From the NCBI RefSeq assembly GCF_022387135.1, contig NZ_CP092462.1, forward strand, positions 2,852,001-2,916,000: DNA of 64,000 bases. The letters run 5' to 3'. This document shows, piece after piece, positions 8,173 to 30,470 of this stretch. Numbering within the stretch: the stretch's first letter is position 1; each line of letters begins with the position of its first letter. The stretch comes from Comamonas sp. B21-038. GTDB lineage: Bacteria; Pseudomonadota; Gammaproteobacteria; Burkholderiales; Burkholderiaceae_C. Both the position numbers and the translations under genes were made by a program. Under the pieces are notes generated by a model. The model was not told where the DNA came from. It saw only the letters and a list, made by a program, of their open reading frames with translations, and ran no database searches.

Positions 8173-8285
8173 ATCTTCTAAGCGTGCAGGGCTCGACACC
8201 TGCTCAGCTATTGCACGCTTCGGGACGCATTGCCCTCTGCCGCCGTCCTGCGATGCGTGTCCTTCCACGCCGCCGCTTAGAAGAT
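8173..8285 (-). ncRNA. Candidate structured RNA, copy A
   Basis: ATCTTCTAAGCG on the minus strand (8285-8274) is exactly complementary to CGCTTAGAAGAT (8184-8173), closing a 113-nt element. Inside lie a GCGTG-GAAGGA-CACGC hairpin directly after the 5' arm and a GCAGG-N7-CCTGC hairpin just before the 3' arm. The same GCGGCGGCGTGGAA block and the same AGCAGGnGTCGnGCCCTGCnCGC block occur in the 17,349-17,492 element, so this is a repeated design. On the plus strand a competing pairing also exists (AGCGTGCA with TGCACGCT), so strand is inferred from the match. It lies just downstream of the HNH gene in the late direction. Confidence 0.55.
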
Positions 8286-14651: not shown

Positions 14652-14906
14652 TTAGGCAGCAAGAGCGATAGCCGCCCTGCGCATGGAATGGATCGACTCG
14701 TCGGGCAATGCCAGATACAGGCAGCGGTGGACGAAGTTCACGAAGACGCGCATATCGCCCTCGGCAGCCTTGCCGCTCATCAGGTCTGCGCCATAGAGGC
14801 GGTCGAATTCAGTGATGAGCACGGGGGTGTCCAGGGCCACTGCGATGCAGGCATCAAATGCAGGGTCTGCGTATGCCATCGGCAGTGGGAGGTGTGATGC
14901 AGTCAT
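14652..14906 (-). CDS. Early phage protein, unknown
   Basis: An 84-residue protein (MTASHLPLPMAYADPAFDAC...). Its ATG overlaps the cro-like stop (ATGA), so it is coupled to cro. In YdaS/YdaT-type pairs a second small gene follows the antitoxin-like repressor, but this protein shows no recognisable YdaT features. Confidence 0.5.
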   Translation of the reverse strand: MTASHLPLPMAYADPAFDACIAVALDTPVLITEFDRLYGADLMSGKAAEGDMRVFVNFVHRCLYLALPDESIHSMRRAAIALAA

Positions 14907-15154
14907 GCAGCCTCCTTTTTGCTCTTGATGAGTTCTGGCCAAATGGCGCCCCACTCACTTGGGTACAGGTCTTTGCGAGTGACCTGCCCGCCAGTTGCTT
15001 GCTCGATCGCTACTGCGTAGGCAGGACTTGGCCGGCGGTTTTGATAGCCATCCCGCCATTGGCGAACCTGGGCATCACTCTTCGCACTAATGCGCGCACG
15101 CAACTCCCCAACGCTGAGGGCGTTTGGCTTCAAGAAATACTCGGATAGCTTCAT
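14903..15154 (-). CDS. Cro/YdaS-like repressor
   Basis: An 83-residue helix-turn-helix protein (AQVRQWRDGYQNRRPSPAYAVAIEQATGG in pieces; RRPSPAYAVAIE is the recognition part) of the Cro/YdaS family. It is divergent from cI, with the operators between. It should turn down the repressor promoter and set the lytic course. The ATG at 15,154 is only about 9 bp past the likely -10 box (TAGACT), so the mRNA may have almost no leader. Confidence 0.75.
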   Translation of the reverse strand: MKLSEYFLKPNALSVGELRARISAKSDAQVRQWRDGYQNRRPSPAYAVAIEQATGGQVTRKDLYPSEWGAIWPELIKSKKEAA

Positions 15155-15162
15155 GAGAACAA

Positions 15163-15221
15163 AGTCTATAGCATTTGCTACAGCTTCGCAAGAAGCTTTT
15201 GCTACTGAAGCATCTGCTACT
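15163..15221. promoter_or_regulatory. OR-like operators and divergent promoters
   Basis: Three 16-bp near-palindromes with half-site TAGCA: 15,167-15,182 (TATAGCATTTGCTACA), 15,191-15,206 (AGAAGCTTTTGCTACT) and 15,206-15,221 (TGAAGCATCTGCTACT). The right halves are almost constant (TGCTACW), the left halves vary. For cro, minus-strand TTGCGA at 15,191-15,186 and TAGACT at 15,168-15,163 are 17 bp apart. The same palindrome recurs at 17,145-17,186, which argues strongly for CI/Cro binding sites. Confidence 0.75.
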
Positions 15222-15230
15222 GTCTGGCTC

Positions 15231-15902
15231 ATGGATGAACATGAGCTTCAGGAGTGGCGCATTAAGCGTTTGGCAGACCTTGCCCAGCGGGAAGGTGGCA
15301 ACGCTGCGCTTGGGCGTCGGCTTGGGTACAAAGACGGCGCGTACGTAGGTCAGATGTTGCGCGGGGAGCGCGTCATCAGTGAAAAGACTGTGATGGCGGT
15401 CCACAACATCCCAGGCTATACGGGATGGTTCGACACCGAAGATGACGCCGTTAGACCAACTTTGATAGCGCTAGAAAACAACCCAGATTTCCCTGCAATC
15501 CGGCGAGTGGTATTCAAGCTGTCGGCCGGCGCCTCGGGTTTTAGCGTGTCATACCTGGATGACTCCGCACCGCCCATCGTCTTCCAGCGCAGTTGGTACG
15601 AGAGCAAAGGTTACAGGCCTGAAAAGCTTTTTGCGACAACTGTCGTGAATGGAAGCATGGAACCAGGCCTTTATGACGGTGACACCGTGGTAGTGAATAC
15701 TGCGCAGACGGAGCCCATTGATGGCACCGTCTTCGCTGTTAACTACGAAGGAGAACTTGTCATCAAACGACTAGTGCGCGATGAGGGGAAGTGGTGGCTT
15801 TCTTCCGATAACCCAGATAAAAGACTGTATCCGCGAAAGGCATGCCATGAGGGCGTGTTCTTGCTGGGGGAAATAGTTCACAAGCAAAGCGAGCGAATAT
15901 GA
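15231..15902 (+). CDS. cI: CI-type phage repressor with S24 peptidase domain
   Basis: A 223-residue repressor: N-terminal helix-turn-helix (about residues 12-60: LAQREGGNAALGRRLGYKDGAYVGQMLRGER in pieces) and a C-terminal LexA/S24 autoprotease domain with VNGSMEPGLYDGD (catalytic serine in GSME) and VIKRLVRDEG (catalytic lysine). It keeps the prophage silent and is inactivated after RecA-stimulated self-cleavage. I start it at the ATG at 15,231; no ribosome site precedes it, so the mRNA may be leaderless, as for lambda cI. An upstream open frame from 15,090 runs through the operators and is not used. Confidence 0.9.
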   Translation: MDEHELQEWRIKRLADLAQREGGNAALGRRLGYKDGAYVGQMLRGERVISEKTVMAVHNIPGYTGWFDTEDDAVRPTLIALENNPDFPAIRRVVFKLSAGASGFSVSYLDDSAPPIVFQRSWYESKGYRPEKLFATTVVNGSMEPGLYDGDTVVVNTAQTEPIDGTVFAVNYEGELVIKRLVRDEGKWWLSSDNPDKRLYPRKACHEGVFLLGEIVHKQSERI

Positions 15903-16614: not shown

Positions 16615-17022
16615 ATGGCTGACGTATACCAACTACAGGGAAGTGGCCGCTCTCCGGCGCCTGACAAATCTTCCGAACCACCCGATAATGGAGGCATGGA
16701 AGCTCGACTCGCGGCACTTGAGGCAGCCATCAAAGATCTACCCACCAAGGTGGACATTGCTGAGCTGCGTGCGGACATCGCGAAGGGACAATCCGACATG
16801 CACAAGGCGATTGCAGACAACCACCGGTGGACGCATGGTGCGTTGATCGGGATTGCGACTGTAGGAATCATTGGCATCATTGGGGTCATCGGCGCCATCT
16901 GGAATGCTAGCAAGCCGACATCTGCTCCGACATCTACACCCGCTGTTGTTCAGCCCGCACCACAGCTCCCGCCCATCATCATTAACGTCCCCGCAGCCTC
17001 CTCTCCCACACAAACGAATTAG
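16615..17022 (+). CDS. Coiled-coil membrane-anchored protein
   Basis: A 135-residue protein: a flexible N terminus, a coiled coil (residues about 28-70, MEARLAALEAAIKDLPTKVD and ELRADIAKGQSDMHKAIADN), one membrane helix (GIATVGIIGIIGVIGAIW, about 82-99) and a proline/threonine-rich tail. The architecture resembles phage-encoded exclusion or hypothetical proteins in lysogenic operons. A strong terminator follows. Confidence 0.6.
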   Translation: MADVYQLQGSGRSPAPDKSSEPPDNGGMEARLAALEAAIKDLPTKVDIAELRADIAKGQSDMHKAIADNHRWTHGALIGIATVGIIGIIGVIGAIWNASKPTSAPTSTPAVVQPAPQLPPIIINVPAASSPTQTN

Positions 17023-17040
17023 ATCCCACCTGCCAGTCAA

Positions 17041-17061
17041 ACCGCCTTCGGGCGGTTTTTT
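17041..17061 (+). terminator. Terminator of the repressor operon
   Basis: ACCGCC-TTCG-GGCGGT followed by six T residues, 18 bp after the stop of the coiled-coil membrane protein gene. Confidence 0.85.
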
Positions 17062-17144
17062 ATTGGCTACGTATAGCCGCGTGATGTCTCAGACTGACCG
17101 GTTGACGTGCTATTGCTACAGGCGAAAATAAAAAAAAAGGATCA

Positions 17145-17188
17145 AGTAGCAATTGCTACTTGCAATCAACAGTAGCATTTGCTACATT
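17145..17188 (+). promoter_or_regulatory. pL-like promoter with OL-like operators
   Basis: TTGCAA at 17,160-17,165 and TACATT at 17,183-17,188 are 17 bp apart, a good sigma-70 promoter facing the left-early genes. Operators overlap it: AGTAGCAATTGCTACT at 17,145-17,160, a perfect 16-bp palindrome ending in the -35 box, and AGTAGCATTTGCTACA at 17,171-17,186, covering the spacer and -10. A weak half-site TGCTACA lies at 17,114-17,120. They match the OR-like sites, so CI should shut this promoter. Expected transcript start is about 17,195. Confidence 0.8.
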
Positions 17189-17313
17189 ACACCCATCGCA
17201 GCAACGAACGCGAAACGACCGAAGGGGTAGCGATCCGGCCCCTGAACCGACTCGATGCAAGAGGAAGGTCTAGCTCCAGTGGAGCGCAGCTAGTTGCAGA
17301 ACGCGATGGGTGT
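17189..17313 (+). other. Inverted-repeat element at the pL transcript start
   Basis: ACACCCATCGC (17,189-17,199) is the exact complement of GCGATGGGTGT (17,303-17,313). Between them are AGGGG-N12-CCCCT and a CTAGCT-CCAGTGGAGCGC-AGCTAG hairpin. The promoter predicts a start near 17,195, so only part of the outer stem would be in the RNA. It may be the first domain of a longer structured leader. Confidence 0.4.
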
Positions 17314-17348
17314 GAAGTGATCGAGCTAACTCCCCTTCTTTAAAAAAC

Positions 17349-17492
17349 GAGGGCTACAGAGAGATGCGGCGGCGTGGAAAGCAGACACGCAGCTTTGATT
17401 CCTGGGGATGGTGTTCTGGCGAGGATGCACCCTTCGGGCAAGGCTTACGCACAGCAGGAGTCGCGCCCTGCCCGCATCACTCTGTAGCTCTC
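17349..17492 (+). ncRNA. Candidate structured RNA, copy B
   Basis: Positions 17,349-17,369 pair with 17,472-17,492 over 21 positions with one G-U pair and one A-A mismatch. Directly inside the 5' arm is GCGTG-GAAAGCAGA-CACGC; a CC(UUCG)GG loop lies near 17,431-17,438; and GCAGG (17,454-17,458) pairs with CCTGC (17,467-17,471), abutting the 3' arm. This layout and two sequence blocks are shared with copy A (8,173-8,285). No gene overlaps it convincingly. Known RNA family not recognised. Confidence 0.65.
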
Positions 17493-17620
17493 CTGGTGTG
17501 ATTTGGAGAGGCGGTGAGAGGTAGCTCTTGGCGACGTGCGCTGGCAGGTGGAAAGCAAGCTTCGGCAACCCATAGCCGCAGGGAAACACAGGCCCTGCCC
17601 GCCTCTCCCAATCACATCAG
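17493..17620 (+). ncRNA. Candidate structured RNA, copy C
   Basis: Positions 17,493-17,514 pair with 17,599-17,620 over 22 positions with one mismatch and one G-U pair. Inside are AGAG-GTAG-CTCT at 17,517-17,528, GTGGAAAGC (as in copy B) followed by a GC(UUCG)GC loop, and GCAGGG (17,578-17,583) pairing with CCCTGC (17,593-17,598), again abutting the 3' arm. It begins right after copy B ends, so B and C are a tandem pair with different stem sequences but one architecture. Confidence 0.65.
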
Positions 17621-17957
17621 ACCGAAGGATGAACAGTCGAAAGACCTGCCCCTGTGATCTGTCGGCAGAAGCGAATAGCGAAAAGACAGCGAGCGCACGA
17701 ACCAACACCTGCGCCCCAAGGCCCTGCTGGGCTAGATCAAAAAAGCATCACTCGCAGCCTGAGCGGTCAATCAGGAAAGCTGGACAGATGCCAGCAGCAG
17801 CACACGCCCGCAGTAGTGACGCGGGTTGTACATAGCCAAGGACGTGCTGCAGGCCCTTCGCGAGAGGGGCAAAACCAAAGCCGAGTGACAGTCAGTTTTG
17901 GTTTTTCTGGTAAGTCTTTGTGCGATCCGGTTTTAGGGGATTAAAGAGAGTAGTGTG
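17621..17957 (+). other. Noncoding stem-loop stretch before the first early gene
   Basis: No convincing gene. Short hairpins visible include GTC-GAAA-GAC near 17,637-17,646, GCCC-TGCT-GGGC near 17,720-17,731, CCTGA-N8-TCAGG near 17,758-17,775 and GCAGCAC pairing with GTGCTGC across an inner CCCGC-N9-GCGGG. It ends at a terminator. I read it as the continuation of a structured leader from pL. Confidence 0.4.
17871..17906 (+). terminator. Hairpin terminator before the small-gene array
   Basis: AAAACCAAA (17,871-17,879) pairs with TTTTGGTTTT and the T run continues to 17,906. It resembles the boxes before the genes at 18,737 and 19,114, each with a CAAA-type lead-in, so it may be part of a repeated terminator module. 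Confidence 0.6.
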
Positions 17958-17994
17958 GGTCTAGGTGGTCTATCTCGATCCACCGCACTAGACC
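17958..17994 (+). promoter_or_regulatory. Hairpin next to the ribosome site of the 18005 gene
   Basis: GGTCTAG-GTGG pairs with CCAC and CTAGACC around an 11-nt loop, 11 pairs in total. Its last base touches the GGAGG ribosome site at 17,995, so it could affect translation of the 58-residue gene. Confidence 0.45.
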
Positions 17995-18004
17995 GGAGGT
18001 CTAT

Positions 18005-18181
18005 ATGCTACTGCACCCACTTCCAACATCCAAGCATTCCTTCTGGCAAATGTTGAAGTCACTATTCACACCTAAAAAGCCAGAACTCACCCCGGACAAA
18101 GATCAAGGTCAAAAAATACCCAAAACCGTCAACGATGGAGATCGTAGGACTACAGTATTTCCAGGTTCCGGCGATTTTTAA
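18005..18181 (+). CDS. 58-residue early protein, unknown
   Basis: Begins ATG after GGAGGTCTAT and ends TAA. The product has a hydrophobic-aromatic stretch HSFWQMLKSLFTPKKPEL and a polar tail. It weakly resembles the product of the gene at 18,438 (FW, then F.TP..P.L.P). The same 13-base ribosome-site/start block is repeated before the next gene, which supports translation. Function unknown. Confidence 0.5.
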   Translation: MLLHPLPTSKHSFWQMLKSLFTPKKPELTPDKDQGQKIPKTVNDGDRRTTVFPGSGDF

Positions 18182-18200
18182 CTAACACATGGAGGTCTAT

Positions 18201-18425
18201 ATGACTTTCACTGACAAAACAGTTTTCAATATACGCTTGCGGAATCCACCGCTCGCGAAAGACATCGATAGCCGAAACGTATGGGAAGACGACTATGTCT
18301 TTCATGAGCCCTTTGGCACTGATGCCGAGGGTAAAGAACCATTGGAAGGTTCTATTGTGATCAAGAAAATTGCACGCCTCATGCGTCAAGCTGCGCTTCA
18401 AAATCTTCCCGTACGGGAAAAATAG
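18201..18425 (+). CDS. 74-residue early protein, unknown
   Basis: Starts at the ATG after GGAGGTCTAT, the same block as the previous gene; an ATG at 18,189 lies upstream of this site and is not used. The product (MTFTDKTVFNIRLRNPPL...) is mixed strand and helix with no known motif. A small leftward operon-type early gene under pL. Confidence 0.55.
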   Translation: MTFTDKTVFNIRLRNPPLAKDIDSRNVWEDDYVFHEPFGTDAEGKEPLEGSIVIKKIARLMRQAALQNLPVREK

Positions 18426-18736: not shown

Positions 18737-19027
18737 ATGCTAGATCACGGAGTACTGAATGTTCCGCTGTCCAAGCGCGGGAACATCGACAACCAGATTG
18801 ACCGCTACAAGCGTGAGCAGGCAATCGCAAAGCGCAATGAGCTCGACGCTCGGAAGGCTGAATTCGATGCCAAAAAGACCAAGGCTTTGGCCCTGATTGC
18901 CGAGCTATCCGATGAGCGCGCCAAGGAGCTAATGGCGAAGCACAAGCTGACCCGCAAGCAGCTTGATGAGGTACTTAAGTCCATCGCCAGAACCAAACCT
19001 GATGCATTCCTGTGGCGCGGCATCTAA
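18737..19027 (+). CDS. 96-residue H-NS-like-sized coiled-coil protein
   Basis: A highly charged, helical protein: RYKREQAIAKRNELDARKAEFDAKKTKALALIAELSDERA (in pieces) predicts a coiled coil over residues about 22-65, with HKLTRKQLDEVLKSIA after it. TAAGGAG precedes the ATG. The plan, coiled coil then basic end, recalls small nucleoid-associated proteins, but the AT-hook-like motif of H-NS is absent. Unknown role. Confidence 0.6.
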   Translation: MLDHGVLNVPLSKRGNIDNQIDRYKREQAIAKRNELDARKAEFDAKKTKALALIAELSDERAKELMAKHKLTRKQLDEVLKSIARTKPDAFLWRGI

Positions 19028-20432: not shown

Positions 20433-20509
20433 GCGTCATTAGCTCAACTGGATAGAGCAGCTGAATTCTAGTCAGTAGGTTGAGGGTTCAAATCCTTCAT
20501 GACGCACCA
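20433..20509 (+). tRNA. tRNA-Arg (anticodon UCU)
   Basis: A complete 77-nt cloverleaf. Acceptor GCGTCAT/ATGACGC (7 pairs), D arm GCTC/GAGC, anticodon arm GCTGA/TCAGT (one G-U) with loop ATTCTAG, so U33 and anticodon UCU; 5-nt variable loop; T arm GAGGG-TTCAAAT-CCTTC; discriminator A and encoded CCA. It reads AGA, a codon rare in GC-rich hosts, and would help phage translation. A terminator follows at 20,542. Confidence 0.9.
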
Positions 20510-28957: not shown

Positions 28958-29230
28958 ATGATCGCAACAGCACCCGCCCTGCTGCGTCGTCAAGATGCAG
29001 CGGAGTTCCTCGCCATCGGCAAGGACACCTTTGATGACCTGCTCAAACAGGACAAGACTTTCCCCAAGGCCCGGGAAATTTCAGCCCGTCGCGTCGGCTG
29101 GCTTGTCTCCGAACTGGCCAGCTGGGCAGCAGCGCGCCCCCAAGCGGACATGCTGCCGCCACCCAACACTGCCCACAAAAATCGCGCTAGGGGGCCGCGC
29201 TCGCAGCCAGAGCCTCATAGTGAGCACTGA
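28958..29230 (+). CDS. AlpA/excisionase-like protein
   Basis: A 90-residue protein. Residues about 8-60 (LLRRQDAAEFLAIGKDTFDDLLKQDKTFPKAREISARRVGWLVSELASW in pieces) fit the AlpA/MerR-type winged helix of excisionases and integrase regulators. TTGGAGAACTGATAA precedes the ATG. The gene converges on the integrase and overlaps its 3' end by 44 bp, an arrangement that lets one transcript oppose the other. I infer an excision or integrase-control role. Confidence 0.65.
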   Translation: MIATAPALLRRQDAAEFLAIGKDTFDDLLKQDKTFPKAREISARRVGWLVSELASWAAARPQADMLPPPNTAHKNRARGPRSQPEPHSEH

Positions 29231-30470
29231 TGACGGCAAGCCACTCCCGGCGCTCCTTGTCGTAGGAGTGCCGGTCATACACCCCGACGATGCCCGAAGG
29301 CATGTGGCCGATTACCGCCTCGGCCACATCCCGCGGGCAACCCAGTTTCGAAAGCTGTGTCCGCGTTGTCCGGCGCAGATCATGAGGCGCCCATTCAGTC
29401 ACAGGAAGTTTTGCCCTGTGCAACTCACTGGGATGATTGGCATAGGGCTGCTTAGTCCAAACTTGGGTTGCAATCGACTTTTGAGGCATGGGCAAATGGC
29501 GCTCCGCTTTACGAACTCTTGGGAAAAGCCATCCGTCGCCCTTCTCATCCTTGCGGCGCAGCACAATCTCTAGCGCCCGACCTATCAGAGGCACGCGATG
29601 ATCGTATGCGGCATCGTGCCCCTCGATCTTGATCATCTCAACTGGCACAGTCACCCACCACCCATCTGCCTCCTCGACCACCCATTCCCCACGCAACGCG
29701 CAGATCTCGGAGCCGCGCATGGCCGTCCATAAATAGAGCTGCAGCACGTCAGCCACTTGCCGCGAGAAGTTGGGCAACCAGCGGAGTAATTTGCCTACTT
29801 CTTCGTCGCTCAGAACACGCTTGGCCGTGACTTGCTTGCCCTGCCGCACCTTTCCCTTGCTGCGCAGCCGACCTTTGAAGATTTGACGCCAGTGATTAGG
29901 CGTCTCTTCCGGCACCCGCCCAGACTCGATAGCGAGATCCCAGGCCGCCCCCAGCTCCTGTTTCAGCATGCGTGCCTGCACTGGGGTCTCTTCCAGCACG
30001 CTGATCAAGTCATAGGCATCTGCTCGCTTCACATCGGACACACGCATAGCCCCAAATTTTGGTGTTACGTGGTTCCTGAACAGCCGCTTCATTTCCTCTT
30101 GGCCCTTAGGCTTGCGGCGCTTTTCCACATGCTCTGTGATGTACATCTGCACAATGTCGGCCACGGTATCGCCTCGCCCGGGAGCCTGCGGCCGCGCCGC
30201 CTTCGCCTTGACCTTGACGGGCGAAACAACGGCTTGTCCATCTCCACGCTGATCCCGTAATACCTCCCAGGCCGCTACAGCTGCTGCATACGACATGGCT
30301 GGCCACTGGCCCACTGCGACCTGCTTCATCAAGCCGGTCTGCGGGGACTTGAATCTGTAGATCCAAGATCGGCGCGTTTTACCCGCAGTCAAGCGCAATC
30401 CCGGCGCATCGGTTACGGTAATATGCTCACCCGGTTTCAGCAGCTTCGCTGCGCGTGCATCAAATGTCAT
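29187..30470 (-). CDS. int: Tyrosine-family prophage integrase
   Basis: A 427-residue site-specific recombinase. N-terminal DUF4102-like domain (about residues 1-95), SAM-like core-binding domain (about 100-200), catalytic domain (about 215-415). Catalytic residues visible: Arg in AMRGSE (about 252), His and Arg in APHDLRR (about 363, 366), His in IGHM (about 389) and nucleophile Tyr in VYDRHSY (about 398). It inserts and excises the prophage at att. It is transcribed away from mutS and ends at the prophage side. Length is normal. Confidence 0.93.
   Translation of the reverse strand: MTFDARAAKLLKPGEHITVTDAPGLRLTAGKTRRSWIYRFKSPQTGLMKQVAVGQWPAMSYAAAVAAWEVLRDQRGDGQAVVSPVKVKAKAARPQAPGRGDTVADIVQMYITEHVEKRRKPKGQEEMKRLFRNHVTPKFGAMRVSDVKRADAYDLISVLEETPVQARMLKQELGAAWDLAIESGRVPEETPNHWRQIFKGRLRSKGKVRQGKQVTAKRVLSDEEVGKLLRWLPNFSRQVADVLQLYLWTAMRGSEICALRGEWVVEEADGWWVTVPVEMIKIEGHDAAYDHRVPLIGRALEIVLRRKDEKGDGWLFPRVRKAERHLPMPQKSIATQVWTKQPYANHPSELHRAKLPVTEWAPHDLRRTTRTQLSKLGCPRDVAEAVIGHMPSGIVGVYDRHSYDKERREWLAVISAHYEALAASAAP

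Follow-up and report, generated by a model that had tools for sequence, protein, structure and literature searches.

The described systems closest to the locus analysed here are the leaders of rRNA operons and several structured RNAs of phages. In the model given in PMC10250234, boxA of the rRNA operon leader (boxB-boxA-boxC with a leader-trailer helix) is tethered at the polymerase and the adjoining arm meets the trailer on emergence, a leader-trailer helix of >17 bp being critical; the same paper, where nut is described as well, reports that loss of boxA in E. coli lowers 30S activity only 2- to 3-fold, which counts against an rRNA-like reading of the leader described below. For the lambda-like phage HK022, PMC9378689 describes a putL RNA of ~70 nt that folds into two stem-loops and is located at the 5′ end of the left early transcript; the text of that paper does not mention boxA. 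GOLLD and ROOL, as portrayed in PMC12286853, are structured non-coding RNAs of phages and prophages.

The window (the whole 64-kb stretch of DNA analysed) is part of a 5.18-Mb single-contig genome, and a PHROGs scan revealed in it a lambda-like prophage with genes for terminase subunits, head morphogenesis, NinG, NinB, HNH and a repressor-family protein on the minus strand, for a CI-type repressor, a Bet-like annealing protein, an exonuclease and SSB on the plus strand, and for an integrase at 29187-30470 (minus strand). The CI-type repressor gene (15090..15902, plus strand; PHROGs transcriptional repressor, E 3.1e-29) lies 5′ of the leader, and the repressor-family gene of the opposite operon (14903..15232, minus strand; PHROGs transcriptional repressor, E 1e-12) is, judging by its position, probably of the Cro type. 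Between the repressor and the first plus-strand early operon genes, over ~17190-17905, follow in order a repressor-type promoter, a conserved 5′ domain, boxA, two stem-closed elements (elements 1 and 2), a conserved 3′ module and a terminator-like hairpin; the left early operon also carries a tRNA-Arg (TCT) gene (~20433-20509; covariance models and ARAGORN). Sequence conservation reaches ~17905, beyond both stem-closed elements. Of 100 genomes searched by BLAST, 19 gave a match, the window's own among them, and all 19 belong to one genus; two of these (L018 and L019) were judged on reading to be chance hits. Among named relatives, Acidovorax phage AP1 and Variovorax plasmids come closest, which suggests a host in the Comamonadaceae. 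The first small genes (17990-18205) begin behind a repeated GGAGGTCTATATG, a sequence also present in L031.

We propose, with a probability of about one half, that 17190-17905 is the untranslated leader of the left early operon of this prophage and that it functions like the start of an rRNA operon. The anatomy of the leader and the identity of its boxA with the host rRNA boxA point to recruited host rRNA antitermination machinery. Shared with the rRNA operon leader are the boxA letters (TCTTTAAAAA), a long helix with its 5′ arm ~2 nt behind boxA and its 3′ arm far downstream, and a structured untranslated RNA within the loop. The phage leader differs in its repressor-controlled promoter and phage-specific 5′ domain, in the exchange of its loop contents, and in the absence of rRNA inside the helix (cmscan of the whole window).

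The promoter (17146..17188, plus strand) is composed of TTGCAA (17160-17165), a 17-nt spacer and TACATT (17183-17188), and operator-like repeats can be read from its sequence (GTAGCAATTGCTAC at 17146-17159 and GTAGCATTTGCTAC at 17172-17185). The 17160-17188 site was not listed by a promoter-consensus scan of the window. Sixty distinct relatives were compared: 52 have a best -10 box whose end lies 6-7 nt 5′ of ATCGCAGC, and 48 reach a promoter score of at least 9 of 12, compared with 9 of 60 shuffled sequences; in the relatives, too, the 5′ domain lies directly behind a promoter with operator-like repeats. The initial annotation placed the RNA pair just inside a pL-like promoter; the promoter with its operator-like repeats, at ~17160-17188, directly abuts the conserved RNA on the 5′ side.

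The 5′ domain (17190..17312, plus strand) is closed by a stem (17190-17199/17303-17312) around an inner stem (GCAAC/GTTGC) and internal hairpins; the pairing of 17184-17199 with 17303-17318 is a third long-range pairing, upstream of both elements. A covariance model of the 5′ domain plus boxA (R1, with the boxA columns inside the model) finds matches in 12 of 399 genomes of the host family (own included), or 10 of 141 genera, and at E up to 1 gives 63 matches over 98 sources, duplicates included. Another 5′ domain with boxA is present in the same genome outside the window (L286, G000:C1:2634951-2635133), presumably in another prophage. In 47 distinct rows fitted to R1, 91.5% of cells pair and covariation is 0.272 against 0.130±0.007 in shuffles (0/500 as high). 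An unfitted 14-row alignment gives 0.182 against 0.124 (0/500); its double-change pairs are not above shuffles (302/500 reach the count), because the inner stem is misaligned there. An alignment-free count found strict pairing of both stems in 26 of 58 leaders and its failure in 32, the main inner-stem types being GCAAC/GTTGC (11) and GCACC/GGTGC (6). Folded alone, the 5′ domain of the window is hardly better than shuffles (z -1.7, 10/200 as good), which counts against the rRNA-like reading.

Could this domain itself bind RNA polymerase and confer terminator resistance, as in a PUT-like leader, with boxA as an aid and the elements as passengers? It begins at the transcription start of the left early promoter, where putL lies according to PMC9378689, and it is kept also in relatives without boxA. 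The leader shares with put the position of a structured RNA, but neither size nor fold, and it is set apart by the description of put: the long form of the 5′ domain is larger (~123 nt) and folds differently, and boxA accompanies it in 51 of 75 relatives. We consider a PUT-like mode of action unlikely.

The boxA TCTTTAAAAA (17337..17346, plus strand) is the sole perfect TCTTTAAMAA in the 64-kb window (0.03 expected), and its ten letters recur unchanged in the rRNA leaders and 16S-23S spacers of the host. Among 75 distinct relatives, those 51 have boxA with at most one mismatch (reached by shuffled sequence in 0.1%), three have two mismatches and 21 have three or more; the 5′ domains of this last group, lacking boxA within two mismatches, count against the rRNA-like reading. 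In a set of 15 loci obtained from the 3′ module motif alone (L353-L367), two (L356 and L365) have no convincing R1 match and one (L362) duplicates L353; of the remaining 12 leaders, 11 have boxA with at most one mismatch.

A long stem starts within 120 nt of boxA in 35 of 53 distinct boxA leaders (boxA with up to two mismatches), and its absence from the other 18 counts against the rRNA-like reading. The 5′ arm begins 0-9 nt behind boxA in 34 of the 35, namely at 0 nt (6), 2 nt (18), 3 nt (4) or 5-9 nt (6), and at 116 nt in the remaining one; these boxA-adjoining stem-loops measure 100-672 nt from first to last base, and the 34 leaders do not represent independent events because many share related stems. 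In the window, the stem arms are 21 nt long and the 5′ arm begins 2 nt behind boxA, that is, the boxA-adjoining helix exceeds 17 bp. The host 16S leader is built in the same order, with boxA, 2 nt and a 23-nt arm, AACAGCCGATAAGCGTGGGCGTT, which pairs at 22 of 23 positions (one G-U) with AACGCCCACACTTATCGGTTGTT behind 16S. Another locus, L408, has a promoter, TCTTTAACAA, 1 nt, a 32-nt stem, a type a RNA (see below) and a stretch resembling the 3′ module; the R1 domain was not detected in it (0 matches in 83 sources).

A lambda-type nut site, dependent on a phage N-like protein, would likewise place boxA ahead of structured RNA in the leader of a left early operon, and lambda nutL, with its boxA, occupies this same position in a temperate phage. 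The window leader differs from nutL by a long-range stem and an RNA cargo behind boxA, and the two leader-proximal proteins scanned (18189-18425 and 18737-19027) matched no Pfam family; we regard a nut site of this type as very unlikely.

Behind boxA, the two stem-closed elements reported in the initial annotation were recovered. Element 1 (17349..17492, plus strand) has a closing stem of 21 nt (17349-17369/17472-17492, 90% complementary) and hairpins P1 (17371-17390) and P3 (17454-17471); element 2 (17493..17620, plus strand) has a closing stem of 22 nt (17493-17514/17599-17620, 91% complementary) and a 3′ hairpin (17578-17598). Their folds beat dinucleotide shuffles both separately (z -4.6 for element 1 and -5.9 for element 2) and together (17340-17630, z -6.3), with 0/200 shuffles as good in each case. 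The same annotation had seen no gene across 17349-17620, and each of the six frames indeed has 1 to 3 stops, which led us to reject a coding origin. Its remark that the family was not recognised agrees with the Rfam 15 scans: the whole window yielded only the tRNA at 20433-20506 by cmscan, with no match to GOLLD or ROOL, from which the element described here also differs by its modular build and a much smaller size of each unit. The 17000-18100 segment, scanned at E up to 10, gave four sub-threshold matches (best 22.6 bits), and no element of L374, L128, L309 and eight type a loci matched. On the gathering scores, a known Rfam 15 family was rejected.

Element 1 belongs to what we define here as the type a RNAs, with a P1 hairpin, a 3′ hairpin and pairing flanks at fixed offsets. 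At least 120 IMG/VR stretches contain its 20-mer GGCGTGGAAAGCAGACACGC, and a matching 5-bp 3′ hairpin follows it in 105 of 121 distinct copies; P1 is invariant among these copies because the 20-mer served as bait. With the 3′ hairpin located by motif and the closing stem disregarded, the 9-nt arms adjoining it form at least 7 pairs in 101 of the 105 copies, compared with 11% for shuffled partners, and the arm sequences vary (72 distinct inner 7-mers in 105 copies). In 31 copies, selected because their middle is short and their stem identified, pairing extends to 96.8% of cells and covariation is 0.545 against 0.122±0.013 (0/500 shuffles), with slid controls at 0.05-0.09. The inner closing stems contain 24 G-U pairs against 10 A-C mismatches, an excess that fits type a as an RNA read from the strand of element 1. 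A generic structural scan of all loci obtained returned 213 matches versus 70 in block-shuffled DNA, its recurrent loop pairs being nearly only type a. These sequence comparisons lend strong support to the view that element 1 is structured, conserved and a member of an unrecognised RNA family that is wide among phages. Neither condition named in the initial annotation as refuting applies: covariation is above background, and no frame is open across both stems. Its statement that the fold is kept while the stem changes holds for element 1.

The rejection of a coding origin is also based on the 105 type a copies, in which each frame is open in 13 to 38, versus 20 to 31 in shuffles. Some observations stand against the non-coding reading: an ORF of at least 100 aa overlaps 50 of 105 type a copies by >60 nt (by mechanical ORF choice in GC-rich DNA), and a hypothetical protein is annotated over the core in Orimi01 and Orisa01-03.

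Element 1 scores 90.7 bits with the type a model R2, and a second type a-like element lies in the same prophage at 8173..8285 (minus strand; 41.9 bits, fold z -3.3), with stem ATCTTCTAAGCG/CGCTTAGAAGAT, P1 GGCGTG-GAAGGA-CACGC and P3 GCAGG-TGTCGAGC-CCTGC. Further R2 copies were found in phages PotUPM1 (where the 3′ hairpin is a separate partial match), Persinger, POI1126, vB_PaeS-D14H and Orimi01 (E 2.5e-5 or better), and Orisa01-03 share the core by BLAST, which brings it to eight named phages. It is located between the repressor and the first early gene in PotUPM1, Orimi01 and D14H, behind the integrase in Persinger and among late genes in POI1126. We found no conserved neighbour gene (the largest cluster comprises 7 of 105 loci), which argues against a riboswitch for one gene. 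Among 369 genomes of the class, the 20-mer with at most one mismatch is present in one, the window's own, and R2 matches are present in two, own included; E. coli genomes gave no type a match, and our search of the open-licence literature and of Rfam 15 found no report and no family for this RNA. Plasmid matches were judged chance, those listed lying mostly within annotated genes, as was, on reading, Rhizobium plasmid H24. In 74 of 105 copies the score of the closing stem is 7-11. A nearby boxA accompanies 3 of the 18 copies with a long stem and 1 of the 87 with a short one; most copies elsewhere are short-stemmed and without boxA, and therefore the cargo does not need boxA, which counts against the rRNA-like reading. 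Type a RNA offers a concrete target for the discovery of RNA function in temperate phages. A minor observation, which may be due to chance, is that the P1 12-mer GTGGAAAGCAGA (17374-17385) also occurs behind boxA in the host 16S-23S spacer (L368-L370).

Element 2 can be regarded as an RNA family only tentatively. Three Variovorax plasmids contain stretches similar to parts of its interior (E 0.7, with no annotated feature beneath the match), and in the one of these that was read, L497, the closing arrangement differs; with such a partial relative, a fold maintained under stem change is no more than tentative for element 2. The suggestion that both elements copy a single fold was not upheld, the GTGGAAAGC blocks not being equivalent: the block lies within the hairpin 17371-17390 beside the closing stem in element 1 and ~35 nt further in within element 2, and therefore the two are different RNA types.

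The conserved 3′ module (17627..17743, plus strand; from GGATGAACAG to GATCAAAAA) was delineated by an alignment of 14 relatives, which contains 21 predicted pairs, four of them with changes on both sides. The copy in the window folds no better than shuffles (z 0.03), which counts against the rRNA-like reading. In L003, L006, L024, L358 and L360, a second conserved block (GTTGCCGATAGGCGAGTTACC... GGCAAAGGAAGCG), perhaps structured, lies near the 3′ end of the leader. The terminator-like hairpin, an inverted repeat at 17871..17905 (plus strand), is located 5′ of the first genes; by a crude rule, a similar hairpin is present within 1,250 nt in 43 of 71 leaders, and in 28 of those 43 it is followed by an RBS-like sequence and a start codon.

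Such end hairpins are what would be expected of a stand-alone non-coding RNA gene, whose single product would act in trans, with boxA as a shield from Rho and the operon read by leak-through; the first genes behind the hairpin differ, and type a RNAs occur in many contexts with no conserved neighbour, both in line with this view. The interior is, however, exchanged or replaced by antisense genes while the 5′ domain, boxA and 3′ module stay, and swapped contents between constant flanking parts fit a leader better than one RNA product. A stand-alone gene, like the PUT-like leader, therefore appears to us an unlikely explanation.

Relatives retain the closing stems found in the window but have other contents between the arms, either structured RNAs or antisense genes. 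For example, GAGGGCTACAGAGAGATGCGG or close variants enclose type a RNAs in the window, L348 and L151, GGCGTGAATGGACACG in L359, GCACC-type RNAs in L358, L355, L354 and L321, and GGCTGA-loop RNAs in L353, L357, L361, L363 and L364. One may consider an inverted-repeat cassette or recombination site, where the stems serve as DNA ends for content swaps and RNA pairing is a by-product, and near-identical arms around different interiors, including complete antisense genes, are what it predicts. The arms of type a copies, on the other hand, differ and yet pair, their G-U pairs exceed A-C mismatches, and the position of the stem behind boxA is fixed; we consider such a DNA cassette very unlikely.

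In the GGCTGA-loop elements, the first and last hairpin loops are complementary, GCUGA with UCAGC or UCAGU (L357, L307, L427, L021, L353, L361 and L375; GCGA with UCGC in L312), which suggests from the sequences a kissing contact like that of the tRNA elbow. Elements of the slot also resemble tRNA in having a closing helix, a hairpin right behind the 5′ arm and a 5-bp hairpin abutting the 3′ arm. Unlike tRNA, the window elements are not called by ARAGORN or RF00005, and the P1 and P3 loops of type a, unlike those of the GGCTGA type, show no evident complementarity. The L309 cargo is called tRNA-Ala by ARAGORN and gives no RF00005 match at E up to 1.

Returning to the rRNA-like leader, the mechanism might be as follows. 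Upon release of the CI-type repressor, RNA polymerase would transcribe the 5′ domain and boxA, to which host NusB, NusE (S10) and other Nus factors would bind while remaining tethered to the polymerase, which would then resist Rho and the terminator-like hairpin. The 5′ arm of the 21-bp stem, 2 nt behind boxA, would be held at the RNA exit until the 3′ arm emerges, and looped out between stem arms would be the type a RNA and then the RNA of element 2, closed by its own stem. Cleavage of the stems by RNase III is probable and may free the cargo, the slot for which is exchangeable between phages. Nus binding, antitermination, RNase III cutting and the action of the cargo in trans are all deduced here from leader anatomy and analogy. 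If phage leaders do use the rRNA boxA and adjoining stem, they would be a compact natural system, separate from the essential rRNA operons, in which to ask whether a polymerase tethered to boxA helps RNA arms that lie far apart to meet. Such leaders would also reveal how untranslated or antisense cargo can be carried by phages in an early operon that is not blocked by it.

A more far-reaching version, which we regard as rather doubtful, is that temperate phages copied the rRNA operon layout into an exchangeable RNA-cargo slot. Its new, widespread stem-closed RNAs would be built like a tRNA elbow (a closing helix with two hairpins whose loops meet), be folded with the aid of the host rRNA transcription machinery, be cut by RNase III and act in trans early in infection, perhaps against a tRNA- or ribosome-centred host defence; antisense genes, toxin-antitoxin pairs among them, would also fit into the slot and be hidden from the leader by the stem.

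Antisense genes inside the boxA-adjoining stem were found in several relatives. The stem of L020 encloses an antisense 93-aa protein without a Pfam match together with a HicA-family protein (E 1.6e-6), that of L352 and the near-identical L347 an antisense HNH protein (E 5.2e-8, L352 scanned), those of L278 and L012 antisense proteins with no Pfam match, and that of L322 an antisense gene; L025 has a DUF7661 protein and a weak stem. The leader stem-loops may possibly provide a slot for lysogen-expressed genes. A short hydrophobic antisense ORF starting MKTQVKVIVKIDIAKC was read by eye in the L004 stem-loop (leader 165-592, blocks of ~33-45 nt), and it looks like a small membrane peptide in the style of a type I toxin.
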